Below are positions 54,282 through 60,239 of a stretch of 64,000 bases of DNA, in pieces (the first letter of the stretch is position 1; every line of letters begins with the position of its first letter). The position numbers and the translations under genes were made by a program. The notes beneath the pieces were generated by a model that searched no databases, had not been told where the DNA came from, and saw only the letters and a list, made by a program, of their open reading frames with translations. This DNA is from Pontiella desulfatans (GTDB lineage Bacteria; Verrucomicrobiota; Kiritimatiellia; Kiritimatiellales; Pontiellaceae): assembly GCF_900890425.1 (NCBI RefSeq), contig NZ_CAAHFG010000003.1:496001-560000 (forward strand), read 5' to 3'.

Positions 54282-55331
54282 ATGAAACGATCGAATTTAA
54301 TGGTGGGGTTGCTGAGCCTGCTGGCGGTGTTTGCCGTGGCGGCGGCGTTCAAGGTGGCGCAGACGGTGGTGATCCCGCTGATGATTGCCTGGCTGCTTTC
54401 CTACATTTGCGGCCCGGTGGTCAACTACCTGGTGCATAAGAGGGTACCGCTGGGCTTGGCGGTCTTTTTCGTGTTGGTGCTGGTACTTTTCGTCTGCTAC
54501 CTCGGCGGCGTGTTCCTGGGGGGGCGCGTGCGCGATGTGCTGTCGGAGTCGCCCCGCTACATTTCGCAGCTCAACGCCATCTATCAGGATGCCACGGCCA
54601 ACCTCGACCTGCCGGAGGACTATCTGGCCGACATCAACTGGACGCAACAGCTCGGCCCGAAGGTGGCGGCGATGTCGGTTTCGGTGGCGGGCTTCATGGG
54701 CAACTTCCTGGGCAAGCTGACGTTGGTCTTGATCTTCCTGGTGTTCATGCTGCTGGGCAAACCCTACTTCAAATACAAGGTGGCCGCCGCGTTTCCGGCC
54801 AGGCAGGCGGTTCAGTTCACGGAAATGACGGCCTCGATCTCGAAGCAGATCGGGCAGTATCTCGTCGTCAAGGTGGCCATCAGCGGAACAACGGGGGTGC
54901 TGGTTTGGTTGGCGCTCACCCTGCTCCAGGTCGAATTTTCCCTGACGTGGGGGGCGTTGGCCTTTTTCCTGAACTTTATCCCGAGCATCGGATCGATCCT
55001 CGCTTCGATCCCCCCGATCCTGCTGTCGATCGTGCAATACTACCCCTCCGTATGGACACCGATCTTCACGGCCATTGTCCTGCTGCTGATCCAGATGACG
55101 ATGGGGAATGTGATTGAGCCGAAGATCATGGGCGACAGCCTCAACCTCAGCCCGGTCGTGATTCTGCTTTCGCTGATCTTTTTCGGTTGGATGTGGGGCA
55201 TGACCGGCGCGCTGCTCTCCGTGCCGATCGCCGCCGCCATCAAGATTGTCTGCGAGAACATCGACGCCCTCAAGCCCATCAGCATCCTGATGGGATCGGG
55301 CAAGCAGTTCATGAAGGATCATGGAGCCTAG
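54282..55331 (+). CDS. AI-2E family membrane transporter
   Basis: A 349-residue membrane protein with about eight helices. GALAFFLNFIPSIGSILASI and the later NVIEPKIMGDSLNLSPVVIL are the family signatures. A soluble helical region lies at about 90-140. Family members export autoinducer-2 or act as ion/H+ antiporters, and sequence does not decide. AAAGGGG precedes the ATG. Its end overlaps the restriction-enzyme start, an unusual coupling for a transporter. Confidence 0.85.
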   Translation: MKRSNLMVGLLSLLAVFAVAAAFKVAQTVVIPLMIAWLLSYICGPVVNYLVHKRVPLGLAVFFVLVLVLFVCYLGGVFLGGRVRDVLSESPRYISQLNAIYQDATANLDLPEDYLADINWTQQLGPKVAAMSVSVAGFMGNFLGKLTLVLIFLVFMLLGKPYFKYKVAAAFPARQAVQFTEMTASISKQIGQYLVVKVAISGTTGVLVWLALTLLQVEFSLTWGALAFFLNFIPSIGSILASIPPILLSIVQYYPSVWTPIFTAIVLLLIQMTMGNVIEPKIMGDSLNLSPVVILLSLIFFGWMWGMTGALLSVPIAAAIKIVCENIDALKPISILMGSGKQFMKDHGA

Positions 55332-56187
55332 GTTGATGGAGGGCATCGGAATCCAGTCCAGGGAGCGCATGGCCATGGGCGTTCGGCGGGTTATTGCCGA
55401 GATGATGGATCGGGTGATGGAGGCGGTGCTGGTGGAAGATCCGTTCATTGCGGCCGACCACCATGCCGAGAAGACGCTGTATGCCGCATTGGTGCCGGAC
55501 GAAATTTTCAAGGGTTCGCATTTCGAGCGCCGCTTCGTGACCCGCTTCGGCGGCGTTTGGGAGGAATTGGCGAAAGTGGTGGCCAGCGAGATCCACGGGC
55601 ACTGTTCCATGGGGCATGTGGTGACCGGGTTCATCGGCAGCGAACGCCTCCGGCGGATCCAGGAGGTACTCGACAAGCTGGAGCACACGCATGCCGGGCG
55701 GAAACCGATCGATCCCGCGTGGAAGGAGGAGCTGGCCTACATCCGCCAGGGCAAAGGGGCCCCGCATCAGGTAAGCGTCCTGTGCGATATCTACATCGAA
55801 AGCGAATCGACCGGCGAAAAATATGCGTTCGAGCTCAAGGCGCCCCTGCCGAACAGCGACCAGTCGAAGGTCAGCAAGGAAAAGATGTTCAAGCTGCTGG
55901 CCATGGACCCCTGCGTGGTCGACCACGTCTTTTTTGCCCTCCCGTACAATCCGTTCGGCAAGCGGGAGGACTACGACTGGAGCTTCCCGAGCCGTTGGTT
56001 CAACATGCAACAGGATCCTGTGGTGCTCATCGGGAACGAGTTCTGGGACTTCATCGGCGGCGCGGGAACCTATGCAAGTTTTGTCCGGGAAATCAATGCC
56101 CTGGGGCTGGACTACAAGAAGCGCATCTACCGCGAATACCTCGGAATGGAACCGCCGTCCGGCTACAACGAGCAAGTGCTGAAATAG
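55321..56187 (+). CDS. TdeIII-like type II restriction endonuclease
   Basis: A 288-residue protein. VLCDIYIES (Asp156) and KYAFELKAPLP (Glu171, Lys173) form a PD-(D/E)xK nuclease site. The flanking motifs (LPNSDQSKVSKEKMFKLLAM; VFFALPYNPFGKREDYDWSF) match the TdeIII family, whose founding enzyme is reported to cut GGNCC. The specificity here is untested. A methyltransferase gene follows two bases later. The start at 55321 lies inside the AI-2E gene end; Met6 (55336) is an alternative. Confidence 0.82.
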   Translation: MEPRLMEGIGIQSRERMAMGVRRVIAEMMDRVMEAVLVEDPFIAADHHAEKTLYAALVPDEIFKGSHFERRFVTRFGGVWEELAKVVASEIHGHCSMGHVVTGFIGSERLRRIQEVLDKLEHTHAGRKPIDPAWKEELAYIRQGKGAPHQVSVLCDIYIESESTGEKYAFELKAPLPNSDQSKVSKEKMFKLLAMDPCVVDHVFFALPYNPFGKREDYDWSFPSRWFNMQQDPVVLIGNEFWDFIGGAGTYASFVREINALGLDYKKRIYREYLGMEPPSGYNEQVLK

Positions 56188-56188
56188 G

Positions 56189-57694
56189 ATGGAACAGGAA
56201 TCCAAGTTTACATTCGTGGATCTGTTCTCCGGTATCGGCGGCTTCCGGATGGCGCTGGCCGCCAACGGGGGGAGCTGCCTCGGCTTCAGCGAGATCAGCC
56301 GCGATGCGGTGGAAACCTACTGCGATAATTTCGCGGAAGCATCCGATGGCAACCTGGGCGACGTCCGAAAGATCGAGGCCCTGCCGCCCCACGATCTGCT
56401 GACCGCCGGTGTGCCGTGCCAAAGCTGGTCGATTGCAGGCAAAAACCTGGGCTTCGACGACGACCGCGGCCAGTTGTGGAACGATACGCTCTACCTGCTC
56501 AAACAGTCCCGGCCCAAGGCCTTCATTTTTGAAAATGTGAAGGGGCTGGTTGACCCGCGCAACGAGAGCGCCCTGGGGCACATTCTGGAGCGGATCCGGG
56601 AAGCGGGCTATCACGCCCGCCACCATGTCATCAATTCCTGCGACCATGGCGTTCCGCAAAACCGGGTTCGTGTCTATATCGTGGGTTTCAGGAACAAGGG
56701 CTGCTTTGAACGGTTCCGGTTGCCCCCGCCACTGGAGGCCCGAAAAACGCTGGGCGATTTGCTCGGGATCCAGACCCGGGTTCCTGCGGCGGCAACCGCT
56801 TCGCCGGGACGCGTCATGAGCCTTTCGAGCAAGAACGGTTTCAACGACTATTTCCTGTTCAACGACCTGCGCAACGGAGACACCACGATTCATTCGTGGG
56901 ATATCCTCGAGACCACCGACCGGCAAAAGCATCTTTGCCATCTCCTCCTGCAAAACCGGCGCAAGCGTGTTTATGGGAGGCTGGATGGGAACCCGCTGTC
57001 GTTGCCGCACTTCCAGTCGCTCGACCCAACGGTGGCGCTGGACGAATTGTTGGCCCTGGTGGACCTGGGCATTCTTGAGGCGGAGGAATACCTGTTCGAC
57101 GTGGCATCGCCCAAGCGGCATGCCTTGGCGGAAGAGGAGTCGATGGTGCTCGCCTGCGCGGCGGGCGGGCAGCTGGTCATCGATGATCTCAAGGGCAACC
57201 GGTCGCTCGGGTTGGGGCGGGGGGGGATTGCCCGGACCGTTGAAGCGCTGAAGGAAAAGGGAATCATCACCTGCCGGGAAATTCGCTACGACTTCAAAAA
57301 CACCAAGATCAGCACGGGACTCTTCGGGGTGAACCGGATCTTTCTGCCCAGCTCCGACCGCTTCCCCACGCTGGTCGCCAGCGATACCACCGATTATATT
57401 GCCCTGGACGACATTGAACCCACCACGACCGAAGACTATCGGCGACAGTTCCTTGAAAAGATCTACAGGTCGGGTAGGTTCCGGAGGATTTCCAAGCGGG
57501 AAGCCTGCCTGATGCAGGGCTTCCCTGGCGAATTCAGGCTGCCGGATGCCCGGGCCCGCTGGATGAAGCTTGTTGGGAACAGTGTTTCCGTTCCGGTGAT
57601 CGACATGTTATGCAAGGCGATTCTGGAAACCGGGGTGTTTGCCCCGAAAACGAAAAAACCGGGTTCCCGCACATCCGTGGCGGCGGGGTCCTGA
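56189..57694 (+). CDS. DNA cytosine-5 methyltransferase of the type II system
   Basis: A 501-residue protein. Motif I VDLFSGIGGFRMAL, motif IV GVPCQSWSIAG with the catalytic Cys, motif VI FENVKGL, motif VIII QNRVRVYIVG and motif X GNSVSVPVIDML are in order. It would protect host DNA at the site cut by the neighbouring nuclease. Between motifs VIII and IX lie about 260 residues, longer than in simple M.HhaI-like enzymes. This region includes a helical part (LDGNPLSLPHFQSLDPTVAL) and a winged-helix-like segment (GRGGIARTVEALKEKGIITC). Confidence 0.92.
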   Translation: MEQESKFTFVDLFSGIGGFRMALAANGGSCLGFSEISRDAVETYCDNFAEASDGNLGDVRKIEALPPHDLLTAGVPCQSWSIAGKNLGFDDDRGQLWNDTLYLLKQSRPKAFIFENVKGLVDPRNESALGHILERIREAGYHARHHVINSCDHGVPQNRVRVYIVGFRNKGCFERFRLPPPLEARKTLGDLLGIQTRVPAAATASPGRVMSLSSKNGFNDYFLFNDLRNGDTTIHSWDILETTDRQKHLCHLLLQNRRKRVYGRLDGNPLSLPHFQSLDPTVALDELLALVDLGILEAEEYLFDVASPKRHALAEEESMVLACAAGGQLVIDDLKGNRSLGLGRGGIARTVEALKEKGIITCREIRYDFKNTKISTGLFGVNRIFLPSSDRFPTLVASDTTDYIALDDIEPTTTEDYRRQFLEKIYRSGRFRRISKREACLMQGFPGEFRLPDARARWMKLVGNSVSVPVIDMLCKAILETGVFAPKTKKPGSRTSVAAGS

Positions 57695-57724: not shown

Positions 57725-58594
57725 ATGGAATTACCGGACATTTTTAGAAGACCCGAAGTAAAGGAATCGATTGCGTTGGCGTTGAAGGAAGACCTGGGCG
57801 ACATCGGCGTGGACGTCACCACGGAGTCGCTGGTATCGGCCGAGGCCATGGCCGAAGCGCATCTGGTTGCGCGCGAGGCGTGCGTGGTTGCGGGGGTTGG
57901 CGTGGCGAAGGAGGTTTTCCTCCAGGTCAATCCGGAACTCGAAATCGAGGAGTGCGTCGCCGATGGCGATACCGTTTCCCCCCTGACCAATGTGCTGATC
58001 ATCAAAGGCTCGGCCAAAAGCATCCTGACCGCCGAACGCACCGCGCTCAACTTTATCCAGCGCATGTGCGGCGTGGCCACCATCACCGCCCAATATGTCA
58101 AGGCCGCCGGCAACCCGGCCGTCGACCTGCTCTGCACCCGCAAGACCACGCCGCTGCTGCGCCCGTTCGAGAAATATTCCGTCCGCTGCGGCGGCGGGGT
58201 CAACCATCGCTACGGCCTGTTCGATGCCGTGCTCATTAAGGACAACCATCTAGCTTCGTGGGAGCGCACCCACGGCATCGGCGTCGGCGAAGCCGTAGCC
58301 GCCGCCCGCACCAAATATCCCGACCTCAAGATCGAGGTCGAAGTCGATACCATCGAACAGCTCAAGGAGTCGCTCGAAACCAAGCCCGACTGGGTGCTGC
58401 TCGACAACATGCCGCCCAACGTCCTGCGCGAATGCGTGGCGCTCTGCAAGGGCATCTGCAAAACCGAGGCCTCCGGCGGCATCAACCTCAACACCATCCA
58501 CGACATCGCCCAGACCGGCGTCGATGCCATCTCCGTCGGCGCCCTGACCCACTCCGCGCCGTCCATCGACCTCGCCCTCGACTTCGTGGAATAG
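57725..58594 (+). CDS. nadC: nicotinate-nucleotide pyrophosphorylase (quinolinate PRTase)
   Basis: A 289-residue enzyme that makes nicotinate mononucleotide from quinolinate and PRPP in NAD synthesis. ERTALNFIQRMCGVAT, TRKTTPLLRPFEKYSVRCGG and HRYGLFDAVLIKDNHL are family blocks, with the active-site Arg, His and Lys residues. EVEVDTIEQ and LLDNMPP give the acidic Mg2+/PRPP site. GAGGATAGGAAT precedes the ATG. It lies upstream of the GxxExxY cassette and coaX. Confidence 0.95.
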   Translation: MELPDIFRRPEVKESIALALKEDLGDIGVDVTTESLVSAEAMAEAHLVAREACVVAGVGVAKEVFLQVNPELEIEECVADGDTVSPLTNVLIIKGSAKSILTAERTALNFIQRMCGVATITAQYVKAAGNPAVDLLCTRKTTPLLRPFEKYSVRCGGGVNHRYGLFDAVLIKDNHLASWERTHGIGVGEAVAAARTKYPDLKIEVEVDTIEQLKESLETKPDWVLLDNMPPNVLRECVALCKGICKTEASGGINLNTIHDIAQTGVDAISVGALTHSAPSIDLALDFVE

Positions 58595-58604
58595 GCGGGA
58601 ATTC

Positions 58605-58633
58605 ACAGGACTATTGATAACAGGACTATTTTT
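58605..58633. repeat. left 29-bp inverted repeat of the GxxExxY cassette
   Basis: This repeat begins ACAGGACTATTGATAACAGG and matches the reverse complement of 59461-59489 at 28 of 29 positions. It contains a direct repeat of ACAGGACTATT inside itself. It starts 10 bases after the nadC stop. Confidence 0.85.
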
Positions 58634-58668
58634 TTAAAGGGAATGTAGTTTGATCTAGGGAGACGTGA

Positions 58669-59499
58669 ATGCCGGTGCAGTGCCTATTCGATGTGAAGGA
58701 AATGTCGAAATCGCGTTTTCACGAAATTGACTATCAAGTGATGCGGCATGTGTTCGATGTCCAGAACGAGCTGGGGCGTCTGTATCACGAATCGATTTAT
58801 CAAGCGGAAGTTTCTGCACGTTGTTCGTCGGAAGGGATTGTCGTTGTTTCTGAAGGGGAAATCGTGGTGTCGTTGGACTCCTTCCGCAAGTCCTATTATG
58901 TGGATGCATTGATGAATGGCGGCGCATTATACGAACTTAAGGCGGTTGATAACCTTGATGGGAACCACGAATCCCAGCTACTTAATTATATGTTTCTCTC
59001 CGGGTTAAAGGAGGGGAAACTCGTGAACTTTGCATCGCCTTCGATTCAGCACCGTTTCGTGTCGACGACAGTGGGTTTCGCGGCACGCTTCGCTTTTTCG
59101 GTGGAGGAATCGGAATGGGATCAAAATTTGAAATCCAGTCAACGACTCTCGAGGATTGTAAAAATTATATTGGCGGAGTGGGGTGCCTATCTTGATGTCA
59201 ACCTGTATAGGGATGCTTTGGTACATTTCTTGGGTGGCGAGGAAAAAGTATGTTCGCCGGTAGAGATCATCATCGGCGATAGGACGGCGGGCCAACATAC
59301 GCTCCCGTTGCTAGGCGAGGCATTTTGTTTGCACGTTTCATCCGTTGTTCAGCATCAGAATCAATACCGGAAGCATCTAATGAGGTTTTTAGAACATACG
59401 AATCTAAACGGCATCCAGTGGGTCAATTTCAACCGTAACAAAATCCAATTAACCACCCTGAAAAATAGTCCTGTTATCAATCGTCCTGTAAAAAAATGA
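58669..59499 (+). CDS. GxxExxY-family protein, long form, in an inverted-repeat-bounded cassette
   Basis: A 276-residue protein after GGGAGACGTGA. NELGRLYHESIYQAEV (about 33-48) is the G...ExxY motif. YYVDALMNGGALYELKAVDN (about 77-95) gives Asp79, Glu89 and Lys91 of a PD-(D/E)xK nuclease fold. Known GxxExxY proteins are usually about 125 residues; this one has a further 140-residue C-terminal region with no recognised domain. The gene is enclosed by 29-bp inverted repeats, the right one being part of its own 3' end. It separates nadC from coaX. Its activity is unknown. Confidence 0.78.
   Translation: MPVQCLFDVKEMSKSRFHEIDYQVMRHVFDVQNELGRLYHESIYQAEVSARCSSEGIVVVSEGEIVVSLDSFRKSYYVDALMNGGALYELKAVDNLDGNHESQLLNYMFLSGLKEGKLVNFASPSIQHRFVSTTVGFAARFAFSVEESEWDQNLKSSQRLSRIVKIILAEWGAYLDVNLYRDALVHFLGGEEKVCSPVEIIIGDRTAGQHTLPLLGEAFCLHVSSVVQHQNQYRKHLMRFLEHTNLNGIQWVNFNRNKIQLTTLKNSPVINRPVKK
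59461..59489. repeat. right 29-bp inverted repeat of the GxxExxY cassette
   Basis: It reads inward as the reverse complement of 58605-58633 with one mismatch. It encodes the last residues of the GxxExxY protein and ends seven bases before the coaX ATG, replacing any ribosome-binding site there. Confidence 0.85.
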
Positions 59500-60239
59500 A
59501 TACCATTCTTGTCATAGATATCGGCAACACGAGCACTTCGATCGGCTATTTCCGCAACGGGAAGGTTTCCGGGGTGGGGCGGTGCGCTTCGCGCTTCAAA
59601 ACCCAGGAAGAGCTATTGCCGCTCATCTCAGCCAAGCCGGTGGACGGCGTGGTGGTTGCCTCGGTGGTTCCGCCGGTGAACGCGCGCTGGAAAAAGGTGC
59701 TCAAGGCGGCGGGATTGCCGAAGCCGCTGTTTGTGACGCACGAGCTGGAGCTGGGGGTGGCGGTCGACTACCCCAAGCCCGAACGAATCGGCGCCGATCG
59801 GTTGGCCAACGCCGCCGCCGCCGTGCGCCTGCTCGGAACGCCCTCGGTGGTGTGCGATTTCGGCACGGCGCTCACCTTCGATATTCTGGATCCCCAACGC
59901 GGGTATATTGGCGGGATCATCTGCCCCGGCCTGCCGCTCATGTTCGACTATCTGGCCGAAAAAACCGCGCTGCTGCCGCATGTGGCGCCTTCCAAGACCA
60001 AGGCCGTGGTCGGGCGCAATACCGAGCAGGCCATGCAGATTGGCGCTCGCCTGGGGTATCGCGGCATGGTGCGCGAAATCCTCGCGGCTTTGGAGGATGA
60101 CTTCGGGGTCGATCCGTTGCCGGTCTGTTGCACCGGCGGCTATGCCGGTTGGATTTTCAAGGACTGGGATGTCTCCGCAACCATCGATCCCAAGCTCACG
60201 CTGCGGGGGGTTGGCATTATTGGGGAGCTGAATTTGTAG
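59496..60239 (+). CDS. coaX: type III pantothenate kinase
   Basis: A 247-residue enzyme for the first step of coenzyme A synthesis. VIDIGNTSTSIGYF (N-terminal ATP/phosphate loop), PERIGADRLANAAAA, VCDFGTALTFDIL and GGIICPGLPLM are the family blocks with the catalytic Asp in ADR. The ATG overlaps the GxxExxY stop (ATGA). There is no ribosome-binding site, so translation may depend on coupling to the inserted gene. Confidence 0.93.
   Translation: MNTILVIDIGNTSTSIGYFRNGKVSGVGRCASRFKTQEELLPLISAKPVDGVVVASVVPPVNARWKKVLKAAGLPKPLFVTHELELGVAVDYPKPERIGADRLANAAAAVRLLGTPSVVCDFGTALTFDILDPQRGYIGGIICPGLPLMFDYLAEKTALLPHVAPSKTKAVVGRNTEQAMQIGARLGYRGMVREILAALEDDFGVDPLPVCCTGGYAGWIFKDWDVSATIDPKLTLRGVGIIGELNL

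Follow-up and report, generated by a model that had tools for sequence, protein, structure and literature searches.

GxxExxY nuclease genes between inverted arms, with matching gene-less doublets, suggest an undescribed gene-plus-repeat mobile system

Genes of the GxxExxY family lie between inverted repeat arms in many phyla, and across five pooled samples 156 of 210 loci were bracketed at an inverted-repeat (IR) score of at least 14; there is very high confidence that the association between gene and arms is real. Arms are cognate to the gene they enclose, gene-less doublets of the same sequence and orientation are dispersed in the genome, and at fixed junctions such doublets are present, absent or exchanged between relatives. 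Together these observations point, with moderate probability, to a gene-bearing repeat element in which a Cas4-like nuclease would act both on the arms around its gene and on dispersed doublets that lack the gene, in the manner of RAYT/REPIN systems.

One such element occurs between nadC and coaX in the window, the 64,000-nucleotide stretch of DNA analysed here (Table 1). The initial annotation had placed a 276-residue GxxExxY protein between these genes, within repeats identical at 28 of 29 bases, and the ORF, the profile matches and the arm alignment all agree, with 28/29 identity over 58605-58633 and 59461-59489 and 30/32 when the arms are extended to 58602-58633 and 59461-59492. The left arm comprises two ACAGGACTATT units (58605-58615 and 58620-58630; period 15), and the right arm encodes the C-terminus of the protein (KNSPVINRPVKK). 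As had been described, the right repeat forms the 3' end of the gene and abuts coaX, the ATG of which (59496) overlaps the GxxExxY TGA stop and has no Shine-Dalgarno-like sequence upstream. The window protein scored 72.4 bits with TIGR04256 (curated cut-off, 35) and 73.3 bits with PF13366 (PDDEXK_3; cut-off, 22; E 2.7e-20). The reported lack of a transposase also holds, as the ORFs and profile matches identify GxxExxY as the sole gene between the arms, with no DDE transposase there, and the profiles of the bracketed gene match PDDEXK_3/GxxExxY only, with no HuH/Y1 enzyme. Adjoining nadC, positions 55321-57694 of the window hold a type II restriction-modification pair.

Table 1. Features of the GxxExxY element and its surroundings (window positions)
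Feature	Position	Strand	Basis or remark
RE_TdeIII-like endonuclease	55321-56187		beside nadC in window
C5 cytosine methylase	56189-57694		beside nadC in window
nadC, quinolinate phosphoribosyltransferase (left flank, outside element)	57725..58594	+	profile matches
Left arm	58602..58633 (core 58605-58633)	+	94% complementary to right arm
GxxExxY gene, long form, 276 aa	58669..59499	+	ORF list and profile matches
GxxExxY / PDDEXK_3 domain, residues 19-125	58723..59043	+	profile match, residue alignment
Putative second, degenerate GxxExxY-like half, ~residues 150-265	59116..59463	+	long-form alignment, L042 match, low-confidence model
Right arm	59461..59492 (core 59461-59489)	-	inverted copy of left arm; last GxxExxY codons
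coaX, type III pantothenate kinase (right flank, outside element)	59496..60239	+	ORF and profile matches

The GxxExxY alignment is conserved at G-x-G-x-x-E-x-x-Y, D, E-x-K, Q-x-x-x-Y and N, and the window protein retains E41, Y44, D79, E89-x-K91, Q103, Y107 and N120, with the second motif glycine replaced by leucine. A short-form model (pLDDT 96.3) is nearest to the Cas4 structure SSO0001 (4ic1; Z 9.9), followed by LHK-Exo, lambda exonuclease and Hjc, and because most of the Z values are middling the structural claim is limited to the fold class. On the alignment and the model, the short form has a predicted Cas4-like fold with an apparently intact active site. GxxExxY proteins resemble Cas4, lambda exonuclease and RecB-type nucleases in predicted fold, in active-site layout (E, D, ExK, QxxxY) and in weak Cas4 profile matches (Cas_Cas4, 13.7 bits, below the cut-off of 22.7; PADLOC Cas4, E 0.0025), but are about 120 residues long with no iron-sulphur extension noticed, and their elements are framed by arms and lack cas genes. 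A sequence search of the PDB returned weak matches to T7 endonuclease I (E 0.07 and 0.19). The additional length of the long forms is predicted to be a GxxExxY-like second half that has degenerated: in a long-form relative (L042) this half matches PDDEXK_3 (E 5.8e-6), and in the window protein, where it has no sequence match, it repeats the helix/strand order in a low-confidence model (pLDDT 54). A role in anti-phage defence was considered and set aside, the window protein having no PADLOC match. Two PD-(D/E)XK nucleases, Rpn (recombination-promoting) and TnsA, are linked to recombination or transposition; as far as we know both are families distinct from GxxExxY, and we know of no bracketing arms of the GxxExxY kind for either.

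All 14 GxxExxY genes above the cut-off in this genome are bracketed by inverted repeats (IR score 12-30, at least 14 for 12/14), with arms made of short tandem units whose sequence differs from gene to gene, except that L040 and L041 share a type. A single window repeat common to all of the genes was rejected, as the others have repeat sequences of their own. Based on an IR score of at least 14, from ungapped scoring that misses diverged arms, 31/42 loci from this genome and its genus were bracketed (shuffles, 0/126), as were 51/78 loci from the Planctomycetes, Bacteroidota, Proteobacteria, Chloroflexota, Acidobacteria and others, in which other ORFs of the same loci were bracketed in 10/441 cases. 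The same was true of 32/40 further genus loci, 25/30 loci from other families of the phylum and 17/20 long forms (16/20 at a score of at least 17), with slightly wider search windows for the 40 genus loci and the 20 long forms, and with several of the surveyed genomes represented by fragmented draft assemblies. Detectable arms were lacking by ungapped IR scoring at about a quarter of the GxxExxY loci. The elements have a median length of 463 bp, and the stop codon marks the start of the right arm (median, +4 nt). Arm build varies with the form of the protein: the long (two-half) proteins have two units with a 15-18 nt period, whereas the short forms have, for the most part, three heptamers at a spacing of about 10 nt.

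Across 84 bracketed loci, protein identity was correlated with arm similarity (Mantel r 0.44; maximum of 2000 permutations, 0.17), which on its own indicates co-inheritance and not recognition because arms and gene are linked. Support for specificity that is independent of this linkage comes from 1.2 Mb of this genome, where 15/71 doublets match arms of resident GxxExxY genes and share one orientation (opposite orientation, 0; shuffled, 0). Further, among 195 genomes of the phylum the generic arm motif has a mean of 6.5 copies in GxxExxY-positive and 0.21 in GxxExxY-negative genomes, and at least four copies occur in 34/104 positive versus 0/91 negative genomes, a contrast between phylogenetically non-independent genomes that recurs inside single families (f6 and f28). 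Many GxxExxY-positive genomes have few or zero arms of the generic motif; the richest genome is G044.

The window 29-mer has 34 matches with at most 3 mismatches in the 8.66-Mb genome and a reversed-pattern control has 0, so the repeat is not due to chance. The initial annotation had anticipated several copies bracketing GxxExxY genes, and the copies exist but do not do so: the repeat is absent around the other GxxExxY genes of the genome, which carry their own, and the remaining copies are gene-less inverted doublets or pieces of composite repeats. Ten distinct tight inverted doublets of the window type, 61-79 bp in length, are listed among these copies, with short spacers that are dissimilar to each other and mostly unrelated. 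Doublets are mostly intergenic, with midpoints inside ORFs in 9/27 cases versus an ORF coverage of 86%. Flanking direct repeats, as expected of a target-site duplication, were not clearly in excess for 84 elements (1.82 vs 1.56 +/- 0.14). An Rfam RNA family as the source of the doublets was rejected, the only match being a nearby tRNA. One composite dispersed repeat (L007, L012, L017, L023-L028), in which GGTGCGGGCGCAG and TTCGTGTTCATTCGCGGTTAA motifs come after an ACAGGAC arm, has the look of nested doublets. Additionally, orphan doublets of the ACCACAGAGGGCACTGAGGCACAGAG type (C3:1-400000 and C1:1-400000), several of which have spacers of 19 nt, have no clear matching GxxExxY gene in the genome.

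The GxxExxY genes themselves show little sign of recent movement. The 14 genes of this genome have diverged from one another (72% protein identity in the closest pair), with no near-identical or recent copies, and searches with one query protein found the family on 8/72,556 plasmids and in 0/50,697 phages, too few carriers for exact empty sites to be sought through them. As the genes are diverged and nearly absent from plasmids and phages, the system looks like a resident one in the style of RAYT/REPIN and not like a hopping insertion sequence. An earlier proposal that the gene travels as a minimal unit, the protein acting on its own ends, therefore stands in part: a bracketed unit whose protein would act on its own ends is the best-supported reading, given the bracketing across phyla and the arm-protein correlation, but it is the gene-less doublet that multiplies and not the cassette. 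The comparisons yielded presence/absence patterns only, with no excision, insertion or cleavage event seen in them. Two of the genes (L040 and L041; G000:C5:354425-356196), which share a repeat type and 72% protein identity and lie 1.4 kb from each other, are possibly a local duplication.

The arms could instead be the ends of a non-autonomous element moved in trans by another transposase (e.g., of the RAYT/IS200 type), with GxxExxY as cargo. Scattered gene-less doublets without target duplication would fit IS200-like movement, and the genome has 19 Y1_Tnp matches; however, GxxExxY-type arms occur at 0/19 of these Y1 loci (best local scores, 9-12), and the genuine RAYT of the genome (L378, G000:C4:1091109-1091450; Y1_Tnp E 5e-19) is bracketed by REPs of the TTGCCCTGAAGGGGCAACACAATTTAGCCCGGGGC type that are unrelated to the GxxExxY arms of the same genome. 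On both counts a RAYT was rejected as the driver here. A single enzyme acting in trans would also not explain arms that differ by GxxExxY gene and track the protein, and, in a sampling centred on GxxExxY loci, each phylum sampled had GxxExxY as the gene enclosed by such arms. The cargo reading is judged unlikely.

In relatives, the nadC-coaX junction varies in its contents. The empty sites that the initial annotation had proposed to look for are found in seven loci with overlapping or abutting genes (L077, L078, L079, L084, L087, L088 and L090), and L085 has a 9-nt gap, possibly a remnant. Besides these, gene-less doublets of families other than that of the window occur at L075, L076, L080, L083 and L086, L082 holds the remnant of a window-type doublet with another doublet nested within it, the status of L081 and L089 is less clear, and L097 (G016) has a different palindrome. 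A GxxExxY gene at the junction was seen in this genome and in none of the relatives examined; no relative has a repeat-less nadC-GxxExxY-coaX order and the repeat, in its 34 copies, is not unique to the locus. A rule that doublets at nadC-coaX always match a resident GxxExxY gene was rejected; about half match the arm of such a gene in the same genome, so doublets may lack a present-day partner or the genes may be missing from the assemblies. Other palindromic families at this junction (GTGGGGCGGACATTC; GGCGCGTTCGGCGAACACGCC), in L097 (G016) and in L092 and L093, are apparently unrelated to GxxExxY arms. At the hemW-cyclase junction of 30 Flavobacterium, ten species have a GxxExxY element, ten have one doublet family, about six have another and one has a 29-nt gap; a GIY-YIG-like ORF takes this position in L245. 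Changing occupancy and doublet family between species of one genus suggest turnover rather than conserved sites.

Alternatively, the palindromes might be older and of other origin (e.g., regulatory hairpins), with GxxExxY inserting or persisting in them like a homing gene and cutting empty doublets. Gene-less doublets are commoner than gene-bearing copies, and both the nested doublet of L082 and the GIY-YIG-like ORF of L245, at a junction that in other species holds doublets or GxxExxY, would fit such targets. Against this, genomes that lack GxxExxY show only a background level of the arm motif, and divergence of the arms accompanies that of the protein; older target sites are judged about as improbable as the cargo reading. 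This alternative shares with the gene-bearing repeat element a protein that acts on the arms, and the two differ in which part moves. A host function is judged very unlikely. In that reading the doublets would be hairpins, of RNA or DNA, that serve in regulation, chromosome structure or repair and are processed by GxxExxY as a host nuclease, with bracketing as autoregulation. The intergenic bias of the doublets, the rarity of GxxExxY on plasmids and phages and the doublets within operons such as nadC-coaX would fit such a function, but junction occupancy and doublet family vary between species of one genus.

By analogy, the GxxExxY system works like RAYT/REPIN without being a member. Both tie a gene to palindromic repeats, with each protein having its own repeat class, and both have inverted gene-less doublets with variable spacers in intergenic DNA (PMC3116915, PMC8266576); likewise, GxxExxY here lacks near-identical gene copies and target duplication. 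Membership is denied because the HuH enzyme and the tagged REP are absent: GxxExxY is a PD-(D/E)XK nuclease and not an HuH/Y1 enzyme, its arms are tandem ACAGGACTATT or CACNNAG-type phased units and not self-palindromic REPs tagged with GTAG/CGTC, and its gene is enclosed by a single inverted pair of arms. Terminal inverted repeats and the coexistence of gene-bearing and gene-less forms recall MITEs and insertion sequences, but there is no DDE transposase or target-site duplication, the spacers of window-type doublets are short and dissimilar, and the genome has no near-identical gene copies. Searches of open-access literature found no description of a function for the family, of these repeats or of such a REP-like system, GxxExxY appearing there as annotation only, and by the comparisons above the system falls outside the known element classes.

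The gene-bearing repeat element would operate as follows, with DNA recognition, cleavage and spread by the GxxExxY protein being what we infer. The window locus would be a gene-bearing copy whose two inverted arms are the protein's own recognition sites, and it is fairly likely that the protein acts on them. A GxxExxY dimer, or in the long form a fused pseudo-dimer, would bind the phased units of the arm pair and cut or trim the resulting cruciform or hairpin; the ends might then be repaired or re-ligated such that doublets are copied to new intergenic sites. Arms without the gene would accumulate in intergenic DNA as short palindromic doublets (~60-80 bp in the window family), and the gene would persist because it is located inside the sequence acted on. 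More tentatively, and with somewhat less than even confidence, a lone Cas4-like PD-(D/E)XK nuclease may be sufficient to multiply its own arm pairs in the form of palindromic doublets, with neither transposase nor target duplication, and would define a class of selfish DNA that crosses phyla and in which the phased units serve as a specificity code.

For a very widespread family without a function, the cognate arms offer a direct biochemical handle, as test DNAs to be bound or cut. If the protein does spread the doublets, a Cas4-like nuclease alone can sustain the expansion of a repeat population, and the RAYT/REPIN arrangement would have been invented twice, with a possible bearing on the origin of DNA-end selection and trimming by Cas4-type enzymes. 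The link to GxxExxY may also explain the abundant intergenic palindromes of the CACAGAG/CACGAAG/CGCAAAG type in the Verrucomicrobiota, Planctomycetes, Bacteroidota and Proteobacteria. In G064 (C12:5300-6678 and C40), arm-like units form direct arrays on one strand at a spacing of ~200 nt, in contrast to the inverted doublets elsewhere.
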